This document shows positions 10,992-20,601 of a stretch of DNA of 64,000 bases, one piece after another; positions within the stretch are counted from its first letter, which is position 1; the number at the start of each line of letters is the position of its first letter. Under the pieces are notes generated by a model. That model was not told the DNA's origin, did no database searches, and was given only the letters and a program-made list of their open reading frames with translations. The position numbers and the translations under genes were made by a program. Source of the DNA: Candidatus Bathyarchaeota archaeon A05DMB-3 (GTDB lineage Archaea > Thermoproteota > Bathyarchaeia > Bathyarchaeales > Bathycorpusculaceae). The DNA lies in the NCBI GenBank assembly GCA_019685555.1, contig JABFQN010000005.1:1-64000 (forward strand). Direction: 5' to 3'.

Positions 10992-12071
10992 TTAATGTTT
11001 AACTTTTGAACTGATAGTCTTCCAAGAAGTTTTCTGTTCAACAGGTTTCAACAATCGATGCATTCCACCAGCCACAAACGCCAAAGACCTCAAAATATCT
11101 ATAAAGGGATAAACTAGAACTCGCAGATACTTTCCGTCTCGCATCTTAAATGTTCGATAAGCGTACAATGCCATAAGCCCCAATAACGGGAAAAATAAGA
11201 GCCCAAATGATGTGGTAAGAAATGCTGTTGACTGGGTAAACACTGTGTAGATGATTAAAGATAAAATTGCGAAAAACCACAGGGCAAAACCTGTTAAGCT
11301 TAACAGAACCCATTTCGATAACATGCTATTGACTCCCTTAACTTTTGGGACTAAACCGCCTCCCTGTCCATAACGGAAAGTCTGCTTTAAAAGCTCTAAA
11401 AGGGTTGAACGATGTTTATGTTTCACCGAAATTTCAGGTGTGAGAAGTATTTTGTATCCCTTCTCGCAAACCCTTTCGGCAAACTCAAGCTCATCAAAGC
11501 CGTATTCGAACCTTTCATCAAAAAAGCCTGTTTTTTCCACGGCTTCCCTTTTCACGGCAAGGTTGCATCCAACTGGATAATAAATCGGGGAACTTATTTT
11601 CTCTATTACCGCCTTCTTCTTAAATATCCTCATCACTGGGATTATGCTTTCATCCGCATACCTTGCCAGAAAATCGTCGTTATACCTCAGAATTTGGCCG
11701 CCCACACATCCCACTTGAGGGTCTTGAAGGTTTTCAACCATTTTTTTAACCCAATCCCTTGGAATGACACAGTCGTGGTCTGTGAAGGCTATAATTTCGC
11801 CTGTGCTGTTCTTTATGCCTGTGTTTCTTGCTGCATTAACCCCAGGTTTTTCCTCTGTTAGAAGTTTGACCGGATAGTGCGACACTATTTCCTTTGTGCC
11901 ATCGGTTGAGTGCCCATCCACAACTATTATTTCAAGTTTATTCCTATCGTAGTCAACCCGCATTAAAGAATCTAGAAGATCTTTTATCTTTGCTGCTCCG
12001 TTTTTAACTGGAACCACTATCGAAACTTTTGGGTAGGCTTTATTTTCCCCTTTCAATTGCCACTCCTTCAA
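10992..12071 (-). CDS. Membrane-anchored family 2 glycosyltransferase
   Basis: The 359-residue protein is a GT-A fold GT2 enzyme: SIVVPVKNGAAKIKDLLDSL at the start, VVDGHSTDGT, the metal-binding ITDHD-type motif FTDHDC near residue 100, and FDERFEYGFDELEFAERV with the acceptor-side acidic residues. Two or three hydrophobic helices at about 240-315 anchor it in the membrane, and a basic C-terminal tail follows. It transfers a sugar from a nucleotide donor to a lipid or glycan acceptor, probably on the cytoplasmic face. Only four bases separate it from the upstream epimerase, so they form an operon; the pair suggests synthesis and use of one sugar nucleotide. Confidence 0.88.
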   Translation of the reverse strand: MKEWQLKGENKAYPKVSIVVPVKNGAAKIKDLLDSLMRVDYDRNKLEIIVVDGHSTDGTKEIVSHYPVKLLTEEKPGVNAARNTGIKNSTGEIIAFTDHDCVIPRDWVKKMVENLQDPQVGCVGGQILRYNDDFLARYADESIIPVMRIFKKKAVIEKISSPIYYPVGCNLAVKREAVEKTGFFDERFEYGFDELEFAERVCEKGYKILLTPEISVKHKHRSTLLELLKQTFRYGQGGGLVPKVKGVNSMLSKWVLLSLTGFALWFFAILSLIIYTVFTQSTAFLTTSFGLLFFPLLGLMALYAYRTFKMRDGKYLRVLVYPFIDILRSLAFVAGGMHRLLKPVEQKTSWKTISSKVKH

Positions 12072-12075
12072 ACTT

Positions 12076-13041
12076 TTACTCGTTTTTCAAGATTTCCTCC
12101 GCGGCCTTTTCAACCGATTGACGACTATTTAATCTAGGCTTCCATCCTAATTTTTTTAGTTTATTAATGCTTAAAAGCATAAATTTTACGTCTCCCTTCC
12201 ATCCCCTTCCTCCATCAACACCGCCGGTAAATGTATATTGAACATTGTTTAATCCCATTTTTCCGCGGACGATATCTGCTATTTCTTTAACAGTTACTTG
12301 GTCTTCTGAACCAACGTTATAAATTTCCACTTTTTCATGGTTAAGATTTGTGCCCATTAACATTGCGTTTATACAGTCTTCAACGTGTAAATATGATTTT
12401 GTTTGGGTTCCGTCGCCTAGTATTTCGAGTTTTCTGGGGTTTTCCCTTAATTTTTTTATGAAGTCGTAGATTACCCCGTGGCGTGCTCTTGAACCCACTA
12501 TGTTTGCAAGTCTGTAGATCAATGCTTTAAACCCGTAGGTGTAGGCATAGCTGGTTATTAGGGCTTCTGAGGCAAGTTTTGAGGCGCCATAAACAGAGAT
12601 GGGCTTGAGGGGGGAATAGTTTTCAGGTGTTGGAATTTCCTCTGCATCACCGTAAACAGCTGACGACGAAGCAAAAATTAAGGTTTTAACTTCGCCCACC
12701 TTGCGGATTGCCTCGAGCAGATTAAAGGTTGCGAGGACGTTCTGTTCATAATGAACTTTAGGGTCTGTTGAGCTGATTCTAACTTCTGGGTTTGCAGCTA
12801 AATGAAAAATGGTTTCGCATTCAACGAGAGGTTCTAGGATTTTTTCGTAGAAGAGAAGATCTCCAAACACAAACTTGAAGTTTGGAGCGTTCAGCCATTT
12901 CTTAAGGTTCTCCATTCTCCCGGCGGTGAGGTTATCAAAAACAACCACTTCAACGTGGTTTTCGCAGAGCCTATCCACAAGGTGGCTTCCTATAAACCCA
13001 GCTCCACCAGTTATGAAAACTCTTCCAAGACTTAAAGTCAA
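12076..13041 (-). CDS. NAD-dependent sugar-nucleotide epimerase/dehydratase (GalE-like)
   Basis: This 321-residue extended short-chain dehydrogenase has the Rossmann loop ITGGAGFIGSH near residue 10, an FHLAANPEV segment, the catalytic Ser in FASSSAVYGD near 125, and the YxxxK pair in SVYGASKLASEA near 150. YRLANIVGSRARHGVIYDF and the GDGTQTKSYLHVEDC segment are typical of UDP-glucose 4-epimerase-like enzymes. It probably epimerises a UDP-hexose to feed the glycosyltransferase encoded four bases downstream. The exact sugar (glucose/galactose or N-acetyl forms) cannot be fixed from sequence. Confidence 0.9.
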   Translation of the reverse strand: MTLSLGRVFITGGAGFIGSHLVDRLCENHVEVVVFDNLTAGRMENLKKWLNAPNFKFVFGDLLFYEKILEPLVECETIFHLAANPEVRISSTDPKVHYEQNVLATFNLLEAIRKVGEVKTLIFASSSAVYGDAEEIPTPENYSPLKPISVYGASKLASEALITSYAYTYGFKALIYRLANIVGSRARHGVIYDFIKKLRENPRKLEILGDGTQTKSYLHVEDCINAMLMGTNLNHEKVEIYNVGSEDQVTVKEIADIVRGKMGLNNVQYTFTGGVDGGRGWKGDVKFMLLSINKLKKLGWKPRLNSRQSVEKAAEEILKNE

Positions 13042-13099
13042 AGATGTGTTCTCCCCTTTTAAGATGAGTGTTTCTTAAACGCTGTAATTATAATTCAGT

Positions 13100-14116
13100 T
13101 TATCTGTGTTTTGCTAAAGCAACCCATAAATGATCACATTTAGGACGGGGAAGAACTGTTTCACTGCCATTTTTACGGACAAATAAACGTTTGGTTTGTG
13201 GCTTAAGGAATTCTCCAATTACAAAAGCCTCTATGTTATGCGCTCTTAATTCTTCCACAATTTTTCCAGTTAAACTTTCTTTTGAAGCTATAAGCAGAGC
13301 CCCAGAACTAATCAATTGCAGTGGGTCTATTTTAAAAAAACTGCAAATTTCAAGGGTTTCCTTTGCCACTGAGATTTTCTCTTCAAAAATTTTTACGCCT
13401 AGATTTGAGGCGTCAGCCATTTCGTGGATGCCTCCGAGAATCCCCCCTTCAGTGGGATCGTGCATGGCGTTTACTCCGCCAGTTTCAAAGGCGAGAATAG
13501 CTTCCTTTACGATGCTTATTTTTTCGAAAAACCTCTGCGCCGACCTTAACAGTTCTTCCCGCATTCCCTTTTTAAGCAGCAACCAATAACGTTCAGTTGC
13601 GAGGATAGCTGTGCCTTCAATCCCGGCGGTTTTTGTCAATATAAGTTTGTCACCGGGTTTGGCTCCTCCGGCTGTAACGTATTTTCCCTTTTCGGTTATT
13701 CCCATAGCGCATCCAATAACTATTGGGTTGACAAGTTCCGGGGTTACCTCACAGTGGCCTCCTACAATGGCTATTCCAAGGGCTTTTGAAGCCTTATCCA
13801 TTTGGGAACAGATGGTTTTCACTGTTTGTTTATCAGAGTCTTCTGATAGGAGAATACATGAAGAAAACAATGTGGGTTTAACCCCGAAAGTTGCTATGTC
13901 GTTGGCGTTGACGTTGACGGCAAGCCACCCTATTCGCTCAACCGCTCCTGTTATCGGGTCCATGGAAACTATTAGGGATTTATCGCCAATGTCTATTATG
14001 GCGCCATCAAAGCCGGCAGATGGCCCTAGAACAACTTCGCGGCGTTTCGCGCCTAGATTCTTGAAGACAACCTCTTTCAAAATTTCAACGGGAATTTTTC
14101 CCGGTGGCAGCCTCAA
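13100..14116 (-). CDS. AIR synthase-related (HypE/ThiL/PurM-fold) ATP-binding protein
   Basis: The 338-residue protein has the PurM-superfamily layout: Gly- and Asp-rich GFDGAIIDIGD near residue 35, SMDPITGAVERIGWLAVNVNANDIATFGVKP near 50-80 (signature split here for reference), GGHCEVTP near 125, and MHDPTEGGILGGIHEMAD near 218. These match HypE-like proteins that bind ATP at a dimer interface. It lacks the C-terminal PRxC needed for HypE chemistry; the true hypE is at 33502. It follows the ECF S component by 25 bases on the same strand, suggesting a vitamin or cofactor role such as phosphorylation of a salvaged compound. That link is inference. Confidence 0.8.
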   Translation of the reverse strand: MRLPPGKIPVEILKEVVFKNLGAKRREVVLGPSAGFDGAIIDIGDKSLIVSMDPITGAVERIGWLAVNVNANDIATFGVKPTLFSSCILLSEDSDKQTVKTICSQMDKASKALGIAIVGGHCEVTPELVNPIVIGCAMGITEKGKYVTAGGAKPGDKLILTKTAGIEGTAILATERYWLLLKKGMREELLRSAQRFFEKISIVKEAILAFETGGVNAMHDPTEGGILGGIHEMADASNLGVKIFEEKISVAKETLEICSFFKIDPLQLISSGALLIASKESLTGKIVEELRAHNIEAFVIGEFLKPQTKRLFVRKNGSETVLPRPKCDHLWVALAKHR

Positions 14117-14141
14117 TTTTTATCCCTCAGTTCTTAAGCGG

Positions 14142-14900
14142 TTAAAGTCGGCTTTCAAGTAGTTGTGGTAATGCTCGCTTAATAACCCTCACTATGGGTG
14201 TTGCCACTATTAACCCAATAGTCATTTGCCCAATGTTTATGGGAACCTCAGCGAGTGCGAAAACTCCGAGAAAAAGCTGTTCGTAAATGAAATAGCCAAA
14301 AACCATCCACAACCCTCCGAAAATGCATGAAATGATTGCAAAGCCAAATTCAGCTTCAGAAACAAAGGCAAGAACCGTCACCAATAGAACAGCGAGCGCT
14401 CCTACTCCAAACCAAAACTCCACTGGAATAAAAACTGTTGATGTAGGATTTTCTGCGGAAACTATGCCGGAGTAGAGTTCGACAATGCCGCTGTAGTAAA
14501 GGAAACCTATAAGGCTGACAAGCATTCCGATGAGTACTCCTATTTCGATGGTGAATATTCTCCATTCACGTTTAGTATAAGCCTTAACAAAGGCTTGTCC
14601 CTTTTGGCTTAGAAAGCCTACAATAAGCCCCTCCAAGGCTTTAATTATAAGCGTTGCAGGTGCATAATAGTAATAGCCAAGAAATACGTCTGCAAACATG
14701 GAGCCAACACCTCCTGCGAAGGCTCCTACCAATGGACCGAAAAGTAGAGCCGCCGTGTAAACCATTGTTTCCCCAATGTTAAAGAAGCCTTTAGTGCTGG
14801 GCACGTAAACTGTGAAGCTTATTGTTGCTATACAAACGAGAGCTGTGAAAACGCCCATTATGCTTAACTGTTTTGTTAAGCTTAACATTTTCAGGGACAT
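14142..14900 (-). CDS. ECF transporter S component (substrate-binding membrane protein)
   Basis: The 252-residue integral membrane protein has about six or seven hydrophobic helices. The N-terminal region reads FNIGETMVYTAALLFGPLVG, then GGVGSMFADVFLGYYYY and TLIIKALEGLIVGFLS, the signature of energy-coupling-factor S components that take up vitamins and trace nutrients. A hydrophilic loop near residue 105-120 and a second half with an insertion make it longer than the 180-200 residues of typical RibU-like S components. EcfA and EcfT are not encoded nearby, so it would share a group II ECF module. Substrate unknown; the neighbours hint at a cofactor or its precursor. Confidence 0.85.
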   Translation of the reverse strand: MSLKMLSLTKQLSIMGVFTALVCIATISFTVYVPSTKGFFNIGETMVYTAALLFGPLVGAFAGGVGSMFADVFLGYYYYAPATLIIKALEGLIVGFLSQKGQAFVKAYTKREWRIFTIEIGVLIGMLVSLIGFLYYSGIVELYSGIVSAENPTSTVFIPVEFWFGVGALAVLLVTVLAFVSEAEFGFAIISCIFGGLWMVFGYFIYEQLFLGVFALAEVPINIGQMTIGLIVATPIVRVIKRALPQLLESRL

Positions 14901-14973
14901 TTTGGGCAGCCTCGGTAAGAATAGTATAGTTATAACTTAACTATTTTAATTTATTGCAACGAAAAGGTGGAAA

Positions 14974-16377
14974 CTATAGTAAAAGTTTTAGGTCGTCGAA
15001 GGCTCTTAGGACTTTTTCTCCGCGCTTGGTTATTTTGAAAAATTTTCTCCCCTCTCCTTCATAACTTGTGACAAGCCCGTTCTTTGAAAGTTCGTTTAAG
15101 TGCTGGTAAATTGCTGCTCTGGTCATGGTTTTTCCAAGTTTTTTCCACAACTCATAGCCATAAGCATCTTTTTCACTTAAGATTCGCAATATTTTCTCTT
15201 TTGTGCTCAGTTCTAAGCCGACAGCTGCTGTTTTTCTTTTCTTTGTTAATGCTTGTAGAACATCTGTTGATTTAAGTCCGCTTCCAGTTATTAAACAAAC
15301 AATTTTATCTGTCTCGTCGATTATTCCTTGATTCACAAGTTTTTTGATGGCTGCATATGTTGCTGCGCTCGCTGGTTCCGCGAAAATCCCCTCAAATCGC
15401 GCTATCTCCCGCTCCGCTGAAAAAATTTCTTCGTCAGAAACTGATACTGCCAAACCCTTTGATTCTTTGATGGCGTTGAGTGCCAAGCTTCCGTAGGAAG
15501 GATTTTTAACCAATATTGCAAGAGCATGCGTTGAAGGTTTCGCCTTTAAAACTGGTTTCTCCGCGTTTCGTATATATGCGTTAACTATTGGTGCACATCC
15601 TTCAGCTTGAACGCCAACCATTTTAGGAAGCGCATCAATCTTGCCGATTTTTTCAAGTTCTTTAAAACCTTTCCAGACGGCGTATAATGTCCCGCCACTT
15701 CCCATGGAAACTGTGAACCATTCTGGAACGCCTATTTGCTCAAAAACTTCGTAGGCTATGGTTTTTAATGCTTCTATTGCCAGAGGGTTCAGCTCCACTG
15801 AACCTTGATACCAGCCAGTTTCCTTTGCCACTTCCTCGGCTCTTTCCAAAGATTCGTCAACTATTTCTCCATATTCTTCAATTACCGCGTCGTAGATGAG
15901 CATTTGAGCAAGCTTTCCAACATCCACGTTTTTGGGAACTACAGCGTGGCAGAAAAGCCCCAATTTCGCACAGTAAGCAGACAAAGAAGCCCCAAGATTT
16001 CCGTTTGTGGCGCAGATAACCGATTTATACCCCAAGTCGACGGCGTTGGAAATCAATAGTGCTGCACATCTATCTCTAAAAGAGTTGGTGGGGTTGCGGG
16101 TTTCATCCTTAAAGTAAACATCGCGCATTCCAACAGTCTTGGCTAGTCTTTTCGCTTTATGAAGCGGAGTCCCACCTTCCCCCAAAGAGACAAAATTTTT
16201 GACTCTTGGCATAAAATGCTTATAACGCCAAAAGGAAAAACGTCCGATAAACTTAGCAGTCTTAAGCCTCTCAATGTCATATTTGAACTCTAATGGGCAT
16301 CCGCAATTTCCACAAACACGCTGCGGTGAAGAACCTTTAAACTTTGAACCACAAGCACTGCATTCTAAAAACGCCAT
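14974..16377 (-). CDS. Threonine synthase-like PLP-fold protein without the catalytic Lys, fused to a winged helix
   Basis: Residues 1-30 form a zinc ribbon (CSACGS, CGNCGC) as in archaeal threonine synthases. Residues 60-385 are a fold-type-II PLP domain: SLGEGGTPLH, KDETRNPTNSFRDR near 90-103, CATNGNLGASLSAY, the phosphate-binding MGSGGTL near 227, and the C-terminal TGSGLKS. The PLP-binding Lys of the SFKDR motif is Arg101 (codon AGA at 16077-16075). Residues 390-467 are a PadR-like winged helix: DAYGYELWKKLG, AIYQHLNELSKNGLV and GRKFFKITKRG. The PLP site looks otherwise intact, so it may bind a ligand and regulate transcription rather than make threonine. A one-base sequence error (AAA to AGA) would be the dull alternative. 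Confidence 0.8.
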   Translation of the reverse strand: MAFLECSACGSKFKGSSPQRVCGNCGCPLEFKYDIERLKTAKFIGRFSFWRYKHFMPRVKNFVSLGEGGTPLHKAKRLAKTVGMRDVYFKDETRNPTNSFRDRCAALLISNAVDLGYKSVICATNGNLGASLSAYCAKLGLFCHAVVPKNVDVGKLAQMLIYDAVIEEYGEIVDESLERAEEVAKETGWYQGSVELNPLAIEALKTIAYEVFEQIGVPEWFTVSMGSGGTLYAVWKGFKELEKIGKIDALPKMVGVQAEGCAPIVNAYIRNAEKPVLKAKPSTHALAILVKNPSYGSLALNAIKESKGLAVSVSDEEIFSAEREIARFEGIFAEPASAATYAAIKKLVNQGIIDETDKIVCLITGSGLKSTDVLQALTKKRKTAAVGLELSTKEKILRILSEKDAYGYELWKKLGKTMTRAAIYQHLNELSKNGLVTSYEGEGRKFFKITKRGEKVLRAFDDLKLLL

Positions 16378-16410
16378 TCACTTGACTCCTCAAATCTTCC
16401 TATAGAATTA

Positions 16411-17460
16411 TTAAAGGTAATATCCAGCTTTTAACTTAATGTCAGAAACTGTTGCGCGAATATCGTTTCTTATAAAACCATGTTTTAAAAGTTCCGAATC
16501 TTTCACCCTTCTAAAGAATTGCACCCTCATCCTTTTTTCCCACATTTTCCTAATGTTTAATAACGAGTAGGCAAAACCCCTAAAAGTTTCCTTAGCCTCC
16601 AAAGGTTTTCCTATTAACATAAAGCCGAACGCAGCCAAAAAAGTTAAAGTTGAATATAGAGAAAACCGCCACCAAAGGTTCCTTAATTCATAATTCTTAA
16701 TCATTGTGCATATTCTGTTCTTTACCGAGTGGCGCAATTTTTTCGGATTCAAAGCTCTCCTTGGCTCTCCATCGTGAAAAACCACAGCCGAAGGAACGAA
16801 CACTATTTTGTACCCGAACAGTCTAACCCTAAAAGAAAAGTCTGTATCATCGTCGTAAATGAAATAATCCGGGTCGAAGCCTCCGGCTTTTTCGAAAGCA
16901 TTACGAAGCACTAGGCATCCTGCGGATGAAGCAGCGAAAATTTCGAAAATGTTCTGAAAATCATCTGCCTTTAAACCTCTTGTTGTATACCATGTTCCTA
17001 AGGCGTCGATTGCAATTCCAGCATTATCTAAAAGGCGGTTGTTGCTGGTCATTAATATTTTTGCTTGTGCAACGCCTATTTCTTCGTCGTTTTCCGCGGC
17101 TTTTACAAGTTCAGTTAGCCAATCTTCAGTCACGTAAGCGTCATTGTCGAGGAAAGCCAAATATTTACTATGGGAATTTAAAACGTGTTTTCCAACATTG
17201 TGGGACGCGGAAGGCCCAATATCATGGTCGTAATGAACGACTTTTACTGTTGGAAAATGTCGTTTAATCCATGTTGCCAAATTTTTAGTTAAGCAGTCCA
17301 CTACGATGATTTCATAGCGGGGATAATTCGTCCGCGTGAGATAGCCTAAACACTTTTCAAGCTGACGAGTCCCATTAAAGTTAATTACAATCACGGAAAC
17401 CATAGGCCACTTGTTTTGCAACCGAGAAAACCACCGCACTGCCATTATTATAATACTCAC
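16411..17460 (-). CDS. Family 2 glycosyltransferase (rhamnosyltransferase-like)
   Basis: The 349-residue GT2 protein contains SVIVINFNGTRQLEKCLGYL, IIVVDCLTKN, a DND metal site in FLDNDAYVTEDW near residue 105, and the acceptor-site DPDYFIYDDDTDFSFRVRL near 195. A hydrophobic helix at about 265-285 (STLTFLAAFGFMLIG) may attach it to the membrane. GTG 17460 overlaps the stop of the upstream RGP-like gene by four bases (GTGA), indicating coupling; ATG 17445 is an alternative start. It likely adds a deoxy- or hexose sugar to a surface glycan. Donor and acceptor unknown. Confidence 0.85.
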   Translation of the reverse strand: MSIIIMAVRWFSRLQNKWPMVSVIVINFNGTRQLEKCLGYLTRTNYPRYEIIVVDCLTKNLATWIKRHFPTVKVVHYDHDIGPSASHNVGKHVLNSHSKYLAFLDNDAYVTEDWLTELVKAAENDEEIGVAQAKILMTSNNRLLDNAGIAIDALGTWYTTRGLKADDFQNIFEIFAASSAGCLVLRNAFEKAGGFDPDYFIYDDDTDFSFRVRLFGYKIVFVPSAVVFHDGEPRRALNPKKLRHSVKNRICTMIKNYELRNLWWRFSLYSTLTFLAAFGFMLIGKPLEAKETFRGFAYSLLNIRKMWEKRMRVQFFRRVKDSELLKHGFIRNDIRATVSDIKLKAGYYL

Positions 17461-18563
17461 GAGATTTTATCTGTTACATCAACCCATTTTCGCATGTTTT
17501 CGATTTGAACTTGCCAAAACCTGACATTTTCGGGAAGTCTAACCAACTTTTCCAAGTTTTTATCAAGGTGATCAGCTAATTCAAGATAGCAGTCCGCATA
17601 ACTTTTCGCCGCCAGCTCCGCAGCATCGCATATTTTCCATAAATGTTCGTTCATCTCTAACCCGTTTATCTCCTTTTGTAAATCTTTAAAAATACTTCTG
17701 CTTCTTTTAGCATGAGTCCCGGAAGGTTTACCTAAACAAAGTCTGTCGCCCAAATGATCAGCTATTTTCTTGAGGAAAACTCCCGACCAGATGTCGTCAA
17801 ACCTGTCAATGTTGTTGAAGTTCATGTAAAGCTGGTAGAAGGCTGGCACAATTTTGGGGAGAAACGAGGTGTTCATGCTGCAAAGCCCAAAGTATGTTCC
17901 CTTCCCTAAAATTATTTTTTCCCGCTTATAGCCACGGCTTTCTATTGCACATTTGCCATTTAACCCTCCATAATAGAGAATGGTTAACGCGTCTAAGTCT
18001 GGCTGTCCACTCCAAAGCCCCATGTTCACCACACAACTTCCACCATTATCAGTCCAAACATAATCTTCGCTTCTACAGGCTGGGTCGTATGGATGCCCCC
18101 TTGGAAAGATTTTCTGACTAACATTTAAGTCAAGATTTTCAATGGTATTGTACCATTTCCCAGAAGCATTCACGGTGACTCCGTTTTCACTGAACAAATT
18201 GTCAACATGTGCCTCTATAAAGCCGCTTGAAAGAGTGACGTCATCATCCACCTCCAATATTACGGTTGCTCCATTTTCACAGGCCCTTAAAAAGCCGAAA
18301 GAAACTTCTGCGTGGCACTTTTCTGGAATCAACTTGAGATATTTCTGGTAAGATTTTCCAAATCTATCTTTAAACCATTTCGCCCTTTCTCTAGGCCCAT
18401 AATATTCGTGGGGAACGTTTGACAAAAGTTTCTCGTTTAGTTTGCGTACGCTCTCGTCTCCCTCGTCTATAATTAAAATTTTAGCATCCATAGGGGAACA
18501 ATTCTCAAGTATGCTTAAGTTTTCCAAAGGGTTTATGGATGCTGTCACTATGTAGACTTGCAT
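17457..18563 (-). CDS. RGP / UDP-arabinopyranose mutase-like protein
   Basis: The 368-residue protein looks like a GT-A fold of the reversibly glycosylated polypeptide (PF03214) type. It has an acidic DDD site in VILEVDDDVTLS near residue 105, YYGPRERAKWFKDRFG near 55, and the region RGHPYDPACRSEDYVWTDNG then GLWSGQPDLDA near 155-190, which parallels the plant RGP pattern of sequence around the sugar site. Plant RGPs interconvert UDP-arabinose ring forms and self-glycosylate; archaeal members are not characterised as far as I know. It is translationally coupled to the downstream GT2. The assignment is by pattern memory, so a related nucleotide-sugar enzyme is possible. Confidence 0.6.
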   Translation of the reverse strand: MQVYIVTASINPLENLSILENCSPMDAKILIIDEGDESVRKLNEKLLSNVPHEYYGPRERAKWFKDRFGKSYQKYLKLIPEKCHAEVSFGFLRACENGATVILEVDDDVTLSSGFIEAHVDNLFSENGVTVNASGKWYNTIENLDLNVSQKIFPRGHPYDPACRSEDYVWTDNGGSCVVNMGLWSGQPDLDALTILYYGGLNGKCAIESRGYKREKIILGKGTYFGLCSMNTSFLPKIVPAFYQLYMNFNNIDRFDDIWSGVFLKKIADHLGDRLCLGKPSGTHAKRSRSIFKDLQKEINGLEMNEHLWKICDAAELAAKSYADCYLELADHLDKNLEKLVRLPENVRFWQVQIENMRKWVDVTDKIS

Positions 18564-18655
18564 TTAAATCACACAAAGGAAGTTGTCGCGAATCATTGCA
18601 ATTTCATGATGCTATTCATCTATAAGCTTTTGTATTTCATGTTGACTTTTCAAAT

Positions 18656-18925
18656 TTATGGTTCTAGACTTGGCAGAACAGCTAAAATAGCTGAAACTTC
18701 TTTAAGGATTAACTTGTCTAATTTCGGTTCCTCGCCGTCTTTATCAATTATGGAATTTATCTCCATATCAAGATCACATAACACTATAAGGTCTTTAATT
18801 ATCCTTGGTCCAGGATCTTTCGGCTTTTTCAGTTCGATAATGGCTGGTAAAAGCATGAGAATGATGAAGGTTAATACTCCGAAAAACAACATTATAACCG
18901 AGTCTGGAGTCGGAGTCGGAACCAT
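18656..18925 (-). CDS. Small single-TM membrane protein beside a polysaccharide synthase
   Basis: I do not recognise a family. The 89-residue product has a Pro/Thr-rich start, one strong hydrophobic helix at about residues 10-32 (VIMLFFGVLTFIILMLLPAI), and a charged cytoplasmic tail. ATG 18925 lies 10 bases after the stop of the processive GT2 gene with AAGGTAAGG just upstream, so it is likely translated from the same message. Small membrane subunits are common with cellulose- or hyaluronan-synthase-like enzymes; this may be one. Codon use fits a real gene. Confidence 0.5.
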   Translation of the reverse strand: MVPTPTPDSVIMLFFGVLTFIILMLLPAIIELKKPKDPGPRIIKDLIVLCDLDMEINSIIDKDGEEPKLDKLILKEVSAILAVLPSLEP

Positions 18926-18935
18926 CCTTACCTTT

Positions 18936-20231
18936 TCAGTGTTTTAACAAACTTGCAATATAACAGTTTCCATTCCCAGAATGTGCTGTTTTATCCCAAT
19001 GATTGCCATTTTTCCCTGCAAGTTTTGACACGAGGAGGTCTAGAAAAGCCTTAGTGCATATGGGAATGTTGTATAGGAACGTGAAGACTAAGAGGGGGAT
19101 AAGCCACTGCGCCCTTGTTCTGCCGTCAAGATACGTTCCAACGCCTATCTCGTAAAATGGGGCGAAGTTTCCTACGGCACTGTATAGGGAAATGGATATT
19201 ACTGTCCAAAATGGAGTTAAGCACTGTGAGAATTTTAAGAAGAACAGAGGAACACCAATGATCCATGAGAATAAGACGGCGACTGGCATAAAGTAAACGT
19301 TAAGCAGCAGTAACCCATCAACTTTTTCGATGAACCCGAGTTTTTTGCTTCTTAAAACGTTTAGTGAATGTTTGAAGGCGCATTGCATATGTCCCTTCGC
19401 CCATCTGTATCGCTGTTTCCAGTAAGCTTGCCAACTTTCAACAGCCTCCTCATAACACTCAGCATCTGAGACATATTTAACGCTATAACCTGCAAGGTAA
19501 ACTCGGAAGGTGAGGTCCGTGTCTTCTGCCAATAGGTTTTCATCCCAACCGCCTAGAGATTCTAAAAGCTCACGGCGAAATCCGCCCACGGTTCCGCCGA
19601 ACTGGGTTATTAAGCCAAGTTTGTTGCGGGCTTCTTGGTCAACACAGTATCCGCCTATCCTTTCTAGTGCAACAAGCCTTGTTACAATGTTTTGAGGTTC
19701 GTTTAAAACTATAACTCTGCCTTGCACAGCTCCAACCTTCGGATCTGCAAATTCCTTTACAAGTTTTTCAACAATGTCTCTCTGAGGGTAATAGTCTGCG
19801 TCGAAGCACAGAATTATTTCGCCATCTGCGTGTCTTAATCCAGCGTTGAGGGCTGAAGCCTTCCCACATCCTCCTTCTTTTTTGTCTCGTTTAACAACCT
19901 CAATGTAGTTGTAAGCTTTGGAATATTGCTCGGCTATTTTCCCAGTGTCATCTGTTGAAGCATCATCAACAACTATTACTTGCAAATTTTCCTTCGGATA
20001 GGTTAACTCCGTCATCCTTTGAAGAAGTCTCCCAATGACACGCTCCTCGTTACGGGCAGGCACCAAAATTGAAACAGTAGGCGGATAAACCGAGTTTTGA
20101 GTTTTGGAATTTGTTTTCTTTTTCTGGGCGGTTTTAAGAACCGTTATGGTAAATATATAATGGCGGACGAGATATGCAACCATTACAGCAGTTAAAAGAA
20201 TAAACAATGTTTCTAAAACTTCAATAAGCAT
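18936..20231 (-). CDS. Processive family 2 glycosyltransferase (cellulose/poly-GlcNAc synthase-like)
   Basis: From ATG 20231 the protein has 431 residues: an N-terminal TM helix (about 5-28), a GT-A domain with VSILVPARNEERVIGRLL, VVDDASTDDT, the metal-binding CFDADYYPQ, AEDTDLTFRV with the catalytic Asp, and the QRYRWAKG (QxxRW) motif of processive synthases, then three or four C-terminal TM helices. This architecture couples polymerisation to export of a polysaccharide. Its start overlaps the end of the upstream membrane protein by 11 bases; an upstream in-frame start at 20267 would lengthen that overlap. The polymer is unknown; no PilZ domain is visible. Confidence 0.9.
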   Translation of the reverse strand: MLIEVLETLFILLTAVMVAYLVRHYIFTITVLKTAQKKKTNSKTQNSVYPPTVSILVPARNEERVIGRLLQRMTELTYPKENLQVIVVDDASTDDTGKIAEQYSKAYNYIEVVKRDKKEGGCGKASALNAGLRHADGEIILCFDADYYPQRDIVEKLVKEFADPKVGAVQGRVIVLNEPQNIVTRLVALERIGGYCVDQEARNKLGLITQFGGTVGGFRRELLESLGGWDENLLAEDTDLTFRVYLAGYSVKYVSDAECYEEAVESWQAYWKQRYRWAKGHMQCAFKHSLNVLRSKKLGFIEKVDGLLLLNVYFMPVAVLFSWIIGVPLFFLKFSQCLTPFWTVISISLYSAVGNFAPFYEIGVGTYLDGRTRAQWLIPLLVFTFLYNIPICTKAFLDLLVSKLAGKNGNHWDKTAHSGNGNCYIASLLKH

Positions 20232-20601
20232 TCTTGGCCGCCGCCCTTTCATTTTTAGAATTTGCAAGAAATGTTAGGCTTAGGGACCAGAAGGACACAA
20301 CCCACAGCAGGTTCAATATTGGGCTCAAGACAACAAATACTGCATTAAAGCCATCCAAGGCATGGGCAGTAATGGCGCCGACAAACACGGAGAAAAGGTT
20401 GTTCCAAATTAGACAAACAGAGTTCCCCATAATTAGTGCAAGCATTTTCCTTTTCAGCGGACCATTTAATGGGAAAAGCATGCATGCAAAGAAAACATTG
20501 AAAATTATTAGCGCTTGAAGTGTTTCTTCAGAAACTTGCAAAAGAATAGAGAAAGCAACAAGGGTTGTGCCAGCGGCCAATCCAAAAATTAATTGTTTCA
20601 A
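20221..20601 (-). CDS. Four-helix membrane protein, first gene of the glycan synthase operon
   Basis: I do not recognise a family. The 126-residue protein is almost wholly hydrophobic, with four predicted TM helices at about residues 3-22, 28-46, 51-76 and 85-113, and a short basic C-terminus. Its end overlaps the processive glycosyltransferase start, so the two are translationally coupled and may form one membrane complex. It could assist folding or export of the polymer; there is no motif that proves this. Confidence 0.6.
   Translation of the reverse strand: MKQLIFGLAAGTTLVAFSILLQVSEETLQALIIFNVFFACMLFPLNGPLKRKMLALIMGNSVCLIWNNLFSVFVGAITAHALDGFNAVFVVLSPILNLLWVVSFWSLSLTFLANSKNERAAAKNAY

Follow-up and report, generated by a model that had tools for sequence, protein, structure and literature searches.

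ThiR and RbkR, two regulators of vitamin genes in Archaea, are built around enzyme domains: ThiR is ThiN fused to a helix-turn-helix, and RbkR is a helix-turn-helix fused to riboflavin kinase. For vitamin B6 the closest described regulators are bacterial. Regulons of the MocR family include pdxST, pdxK and pdxU, and the family is reported to be absent from Archaea (PMC5320631). PdxU and PdxU2/HmpT are B6 transporters of the family PF07155 (PMC9997740), and HmpT/PdxU2 is reported to bind or carry pyridoxamine (PMC4860826). Some alternative kinases for B6 still await discovery (PMC9997740). In the literature searched, no B6 regulator of Archaea was found, and nothing relevant on a threonine-synthase/PadR or fold-type-II PLP regulator.

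The locus compared here lies in a window of 64,000 nucleotides (the whole stretch of DNA that was analysed) from Candidatus Bathyarchaeota archaeon A05DMB-3. One of its genes is very probably a transcription factor for vitamin B6 supply, in which a degenerate enzyme domain related to threonine synthase (ThrC), most likely a sensor of PLP, is joined to a PadR-like winged helix that would bind a predicted operator and repress when PLP is plentiful. The features of the locus are:

14974–16377, minus strand: regulator gene, ThrC-like fold-type-II PLP domain with a C-terminal PadR-like winged helix, 467 aa (open reading frame, Pfam, NCBIfam, model)
16294–16368, minus strand: N-terminal zinc ribbon, residues 4–28, with C6, C9, C22 and C25 (cysteines invariant in alignments A1 and A3)
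15262–16230, minus strand: ThrC-like PLP-binding domain, residues 50–372 (Pfam PALP, 6.5e-78; PDB matches)
16075–16077, minus strand: Arg101 codon AGA, at the site of the ThrC Schiff-base lysine (alignment to ThrC; kept in orthologues)
15688–15702, minus strand: GSGGT, residues 226–230, at the PLP-phosphate-loop position (aligned with T. thermophilus G187–N191)
14977–15210, minus strand: PadR-like winged helix, residues 390–467 (Pfam PadR, 3.6e-13; helices and wing in the model)
14920–14945: predicted operator AATAGTTAAGTTATAACTATACTATT (as read on the minus strand), core 22-bp palindrome 14922–14943, ending 19 bp before the S-component ATG
14142–14900, minus strand: predicted target, ECF transporter S component of PF07155, PdxU/HmpT-like (Pfam, 7.2e-31; profile and fold match to 4hzu_S)
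13100–14116, minus strand: AIR-synthase/HypE/ThiL-family gene, likely co-transcribed with the S component (Pfam AIRS and AIRS_C)

The regulator gene is an open reading frame with an ATG start and no interruption. The four cysteines of its zinc ribbon are nearly invariant among its relatives, Pfam PALP covers residues 63–365 (E 6.5e-78), and the loops MGSGGTL (225–231) and TGSGLKS (364–370) are present. By sequence, its solved relatives are threonine synthases (2zsj, 4e-63). An AlphaFold2 model made from a 54-sequence alignment (mean pLDDT 89.9, pTM 0.79) consists of a ThrC fold and a C-terminal winged-helix region, with a poorly defined linker at about 370–388; its best PDB match is 6nmx, the threonine synthase of Bacillus subtilis (E 2e-31, TM 0.86 normalised by the target), and other ThrC structures are also among its best fold matches. 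The preliminary description had claimed a ThrC fold with a zinc ribbon and both loops, which is borne out by Pfam PALP, the PDB matches and the model. It had also named the alignment with PadR from about residue 390 as a test, and the region does align, PF03551 matching residues 396–458 at 49.7 bits, above the gathering cut-off of 27. NCBIfam NF004170/PRK05638, labelled ‘threonine synthase’, matches residues 4–460 of 467 at 417.3 bits, just under its cut-off of 421; since this model spans the whole protein, the fusion is already on record in databases. A chance pairing of two genes was ruled out by full-length fused orthologues in dozens of genomes. Around the locus (window positions 10992–20267) lie several glycosyltransferase-like genes, for which no link to B6 was seen.

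Codon 16077–16075 is AGA and encodes Arg101. Its counterpart in T. thermophilus ThrC is Lys61, as numbered along the 1uim alignment; the Schiff-base lysine of the ThrC motif NPTGSFKDR is missing. Among 50 order-level orthologues in which the residue is readable, 48 have Arg, one has Met (L005), one has Ser (L006) and none has Lys. As the arginine is conserved across these orthologues, a sequencing error is ruled out, and the earlier claim of an arginine where the PLP lysine is expected holds.

Residue 101 was tabulated more widely in an alignment of 162 sequences. The clade of the window protein (the R clade, 85 sequences) has Arg in 83, the other two having Met and Ser. In a sister clade of 20 fused proteins, Leu is found in eight, Ile in seven, Thr in two, and Val, Met and Ala in one each. 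Lys is present in 25 fused members, 14 Lokiarchaeal and 11 Bathyarchaeal, and in the 32 unfused ThrC homologues; no complete unfused homologue lacking it was seen in this alignment. Homologues with the fusion thus do not all keep the lysine, and its loss stands for the window protein and most members, but not for the Lokiarchaeal and some of the Bathyarchaeal ones. The notion that every fused protein lacks Lys was dropped once the 25 K-type proteins had been found; since some fused members keep the residue, loss of catalysis is not a defining trait of the family. The source genome also encodes two unfused ThrC-like paralogues with Lys (L002 and L003), one of which has NPTGSFKDRGST and the other PTGTFKARG.

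The same fused build was found, in a scan of named genomes, in Bathyarchaeota, Lokiarchaeota, Thorarchaeota, Hermodarchaeum, Baldrarchaeota, a Desulfurococcales bin and Thermococcaceae. In a maximum-likelihood tree, obtained by a quick search under LG+G4 and therefore soft in its deep order, the fused proteins form one clade beside canonical unfused ThrC, with the exception of a long-branched unfused group which falls inside it, and residue 101 requires at least seven changes of state (R, K or other).

The ligand pocket has changed throughout the fused proteins. T88, N154, S155, R160 and mostly N188 (T. thermophilus numbering), which from ThrC structures we take to be substrate or cofactor contacts, are altered in all fused groups, Lys-bearing ones included; these positions are 91% conserved in canonical unfused ThrC, whereas the R clade mostly has M/L, A/P, E, V/S/A and S. 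K116, N87, G187 and T317 are largely kept in comparison with canonical ThrC. Position 128 (T88) tracks residue 101, being Q/H with Lys, M/L with Arg and L/F in the third group. Judged by its residues, the altered pocket would fit a protein that still holds something PLP-like and no longer handles O-phosphohomoserine.

The S component encoded by the next gene after the regulator, at 14142–14900, belongs, like PdxU and PdxU2/HmpT, to PF07155/COG4720. Its sole PDB profile match is 4hzu_S (HmpT/PdxU2, E 2.1e-23), which also ranks first by fold. For the pyridoxamine contacts of HmpT (E41, Q43 and H84; PMC4860826), E41 corresponds to E44 here and H84 to K87, while Q43 is unplaceable; the S component here has Lys and Glu where HmpT has His84 and Gln87, and the AIRS/ThiL-like gene that follows the window S component is a further difference from HmpT. 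With His84 replaced by Lys and a Pfam family named after riboflavin, B6 is a putative, not a proven, substrate. The AIRS/HypE/ThiL-family gene at 13100–14116 is a candidate kinase for trapping imported B6; in many genomes, whether or not these have the regulator, a gene of its kind comes after the B6-type S component.

Of 80 named loci, at least 52 have a PF07155 S component adjacent to the regulator or one gene away (counted from the table of these loci). The pairing is seen in R-, K- and I/L-type members from several phyla, and the regulatory role seems to have outlasted several exchanges of residue 101. Four genomes of f14, another Thermoproteota family, have the order regulator, S component, ECF-type ATPase, membrane protein, and these include the best matches to PRK05638. 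The PRK05638 matches at 695–703 bits have Arg at the PLP-lysine site as well; because of this residue and the neighbouring ECF transporter, the name ‘threonine synthase’ is probably wrong for them. One Lys-less fused regulator (L202:6016-7320), with Arg and 695 bits to NF004170 (PRK05638), is encoded beside an ECF transporter. In three Thermococcaceae loci (L196, L198 and L201) the Arg-type gene lies upstream of a gene that, by eye, resembles ribose-5-phosphate isomerase, with no adjacent S component; ribose 5-phosphate is a substrate of PdxS.

Nearly all Bathyarchaeal spacers between the regulator and S-component genes contain a near-perfect palindrome, TAGTATAGTTATAACTATACTA, with a mean palindrome score of 7.8 against 4.3 in shuffles. 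A matrix was trained on these spacers, and three of the tests used sites outside the training set. The window site is the only strong match in 64 kb (32.6 bits, the next 0.8) and the only exact match to the pattern in its own genome. Where S-component genes are unlinked to the regulator (L226–L228; G062, G064 and G071), a site is found 14–17 bp upstream, at 32.6, 29.6 and 23.5 bits. The S-component genes of 15 regulator-less genomes have no site, the best scoring 9.8 bits and the rest below 0. A weak, half-eroded operator of 9.8 bits precedes the S component of L232 (G099), a genome in which the regulator was not found. Across 101 genomes of the class, by our tally, a site is present in 46 of 51 regulator-positive and 3 of 50 regulator-negative genomes. 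G412 and G413, where no fused regulator turned up, have one site each at no more than one mismatch; two sites were left uncounted, one inside a called open reading frame (G368 C96:43871) and one about 400 bp from a purA-like gene (G084 C34:14437).

Operators also occur before other genes. A perfect one precedes a gene of 305 aa with weak similarity to ECF riboflavin S components, followed by a ThiL-like gene (L302:1477-3484; G046 C18), and one lies directly upstream of a second type of S component, with a WHIGD motif, at L305:1523-2103 and L306:1779-2344. In Lokiarchaea, a related palindrome, ATAAGTTNNAACTTAT, stands before 13 of 14 S-component genes, with 13–14 of 14 matches (chance about 0.001 each), a descriptive test since the Asgard consensus was read off the same sequences. 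The winged helix keeps Y424-Q425-H426 without variation throughout the broad alignment A3, and this, with the related Lokiarchaeal palindrome, suggests that the DNA-reading part is common to Lys-bearing and Lys-less members.

The operator is also associated with genes of B6 synthesis. In genomes with an R-type regulator, unlinked pdxS has a site directly upstream in all five cases (37.5 bits in G368, 23.1 in G071, 15.7 in G074, 14.4 in G089 and a weak 7.1 in G058). Six f10 genomes for which the search gave no fused regulator served as controls, and none of their pdxST loci has a site or scores above 4 bits; this comparison, 5/5 against 0/6, leaves out of the controls the pdxS genes of L253 and L255, which start at contig ends and have unreadable promoters. 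In four f13 genomes a Leu-type regulator is divergent from pdxS–pdxT, with 67–150 bp between the called open reading frames and only a degenerate palindrome in these regions; in the one checked against NCBIfam, pdxS scored 459 (cut-off 395) and pdxT 215 (cut-off 106).

The pdxS gene itself is seldom found among these archaea, although such absences are soft, the genomes being mostly MAGs. As pdxS (TIGR00343) was found neither in the source genome nor in 96 of 101 genomes searched, import of B6 should matter. Across the class, 240 of 257 genomes lack the gene. Of the 34 genomes that supplied named regulator loci, 31 lack it, all sixteen Asgard genomes tested from the Loki/Thor/Hermod groups among them; in the three that have it, the regulator has no S component next to it. 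In an even sample of the phylum (n=200), pdxS is present in 5 of the 38 genomes that carry a fused regulator against 91 of the 162 that do not (Fisher 1e-6, uncorrected for relatedness).

The preliminary description had proposed a fold-type-II analogue of MocR, a pseudoenzyme sensor with a winged helix. This proposal is well supported by the fold, the loss of the lysine, the gene neighbours and the operator with its co-occurrence with the regulator, unlinked sites included, all of which were computed here. In the mechanism envisaged, the ThrC-like domain would be a degenerate enzyme whose PLP-like pocket reads the PLP pool, and the PadR-like winged helix, as a dimer, would bind the 22–26 bp palindrome between the regulator and S-component genes. 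When PLP is sufficient, the promoter of the genes for B6 uptake (and synthesis) would be closed; when PLP is short, release would allow B6 uptake to rise, and pdxST expression too where these genes are present. Repression is likely to be the sign of regulation because the operator lies no more than about 30 bp before the start codon of its target. PLP is the most likely of the ligands proposed, and the window protein would hold it without a Schiff base; Lys-bearing members may hold it as an aldimine and the others non-covalently.

The ThrC ancestry of the protein might instead point to the threonine/homoserine branch, with the ThrC-like domain sensing an amino acid or O-phosphohomoserine and the regulator controlling thrC or amino-acid uptake. 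In several f9 genomes the regulator is indeed divergent from a real, Lys-bearing thrC. However, these thrC genes have no operator upstream (−8 to −21 bits), the pocket residues of ThrC are gone, and the regulator is repeatedly associated with a B6-family S component and pdxST. A threonine-pathway regulator was rejected as the main reading on the evidence of the divergent f9 promoters, and is considered improbable. The description had offered PLP, an amino acid or a phospho-homoserine-like compound as ligand; PLP is favoured, and phospho-homoserine is unlikely because the ThrC pocket positions are lost and the real thrC beside the regulator lacks the operator. It is just as doubtful that the regulator and S component serve another vitamin (riboflavin, or a precursor of thiamine), with the pdxST link secondary. 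The NCBIfam riboflavin model PRK13661 gives the S component only 22 bits against a cut-off of 99, despite the riboflavin label of PF07155 in Pfam, and HmpT is its best structural relative. The AIRS/ThiL-like neighbour and the one operator beside a ThiL-like gene (L302) would suit thiamine, but in five genomes pdxS has the operator in front of it, and a further four have pdxST next to the regulator.

A trigger enzyme, still catalytic on the ThrC or another substrate and with an added DNA-binding domain, is the least probable of these alternatives. The essential lysine is gone from the window protein and most members, the altered pocket is common to the K-type proteins, and Bathyarchaeal K-type genomes carry a separate unfused thrC. 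Such an enzyme would agree with the lysine of the Lokiarchaeal and some Bathyarchaeal members, with the NCBIfam name, and with Lokiarchaeal genomes, in which the K-type fused protein is the only detectable ThrC homologue; these Lokiarchaeal proteins could also be enzymes.

Regulation of B6 supply by PLP remains the preferred reading of the window gene. For the family as a whole, it is reasonably probable that its members are the first B6-responsive transcription factors of Archaea and the first on the fold-type-II PLP fold, with a range that takes in Bathyarchaea, Asgard archaea, other Thermoproteota and Thermococci; that the sensor role was kept through several losses or exchanges of the Schiff-base lysine, most members sensing PLP non-covalently; and that the curated ‘threonine synthase’ family contains such regulators. 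A candidate B6 regulator of Archaea can now be named, together with a predicted operator, its target genes and a ligand that can be tested, and many genes called threonine synthase are suggested to be regulators. The presence of Lys-bearing and Lys-less members in one family makes PLP sensing with or without the lysine open to test. B6 auxotrophy with salvage is predicted for most relatives of the source organism.

Compared with known systems, the window protein is related to ThrC by descent and fails its defining lysine. It shares with ThrC, NF004170/PRK05638 included, the fold, the zinc ribbon and several PLP-site positions, and PRK05638 spans the same fused build; most fused members differ in the missing Schiff-base lysine, the altered substrate pocket, the DNA-binding domain and the B6 gene context. 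Like ThiR and RbkR, it would be a case of a metabolic enzyme domain reused as a cofactor sensor in an archaeal vitamin-gene regulator, for another vitamin and on another fold; as far as the literature was searched, this fold has no earlier report in that role. With the bacterial PdxR/MocR proteins it shares a winged helix joined to a sensor domain derived from a PLP enzyme, a B6-gene regulon (pdxST, pdxU; here by operator and gene context only) and, in the f13 genomes, the divergent arrangement of regulator and pdxST seen for PdxR. MocR, in contrast, has a fold-type-I aminotransferase sensor and an N-terminal GntR helix-turn-helix, whereas the window protein has a PALP/ThrC domain of fold type II with a zinc ribbon, its lysine usually lost in the family, and a C-terminal PadR-like winged helix. 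The same solution, a PLP enzyme turned into a PLP sensor with a winged helix, would thus have arisen from an unrelated PLP fold. Since the sensor fold, the type of winged helix and the domain order differ, the protein is PdxR-like in its working but lies outside the MocR family.
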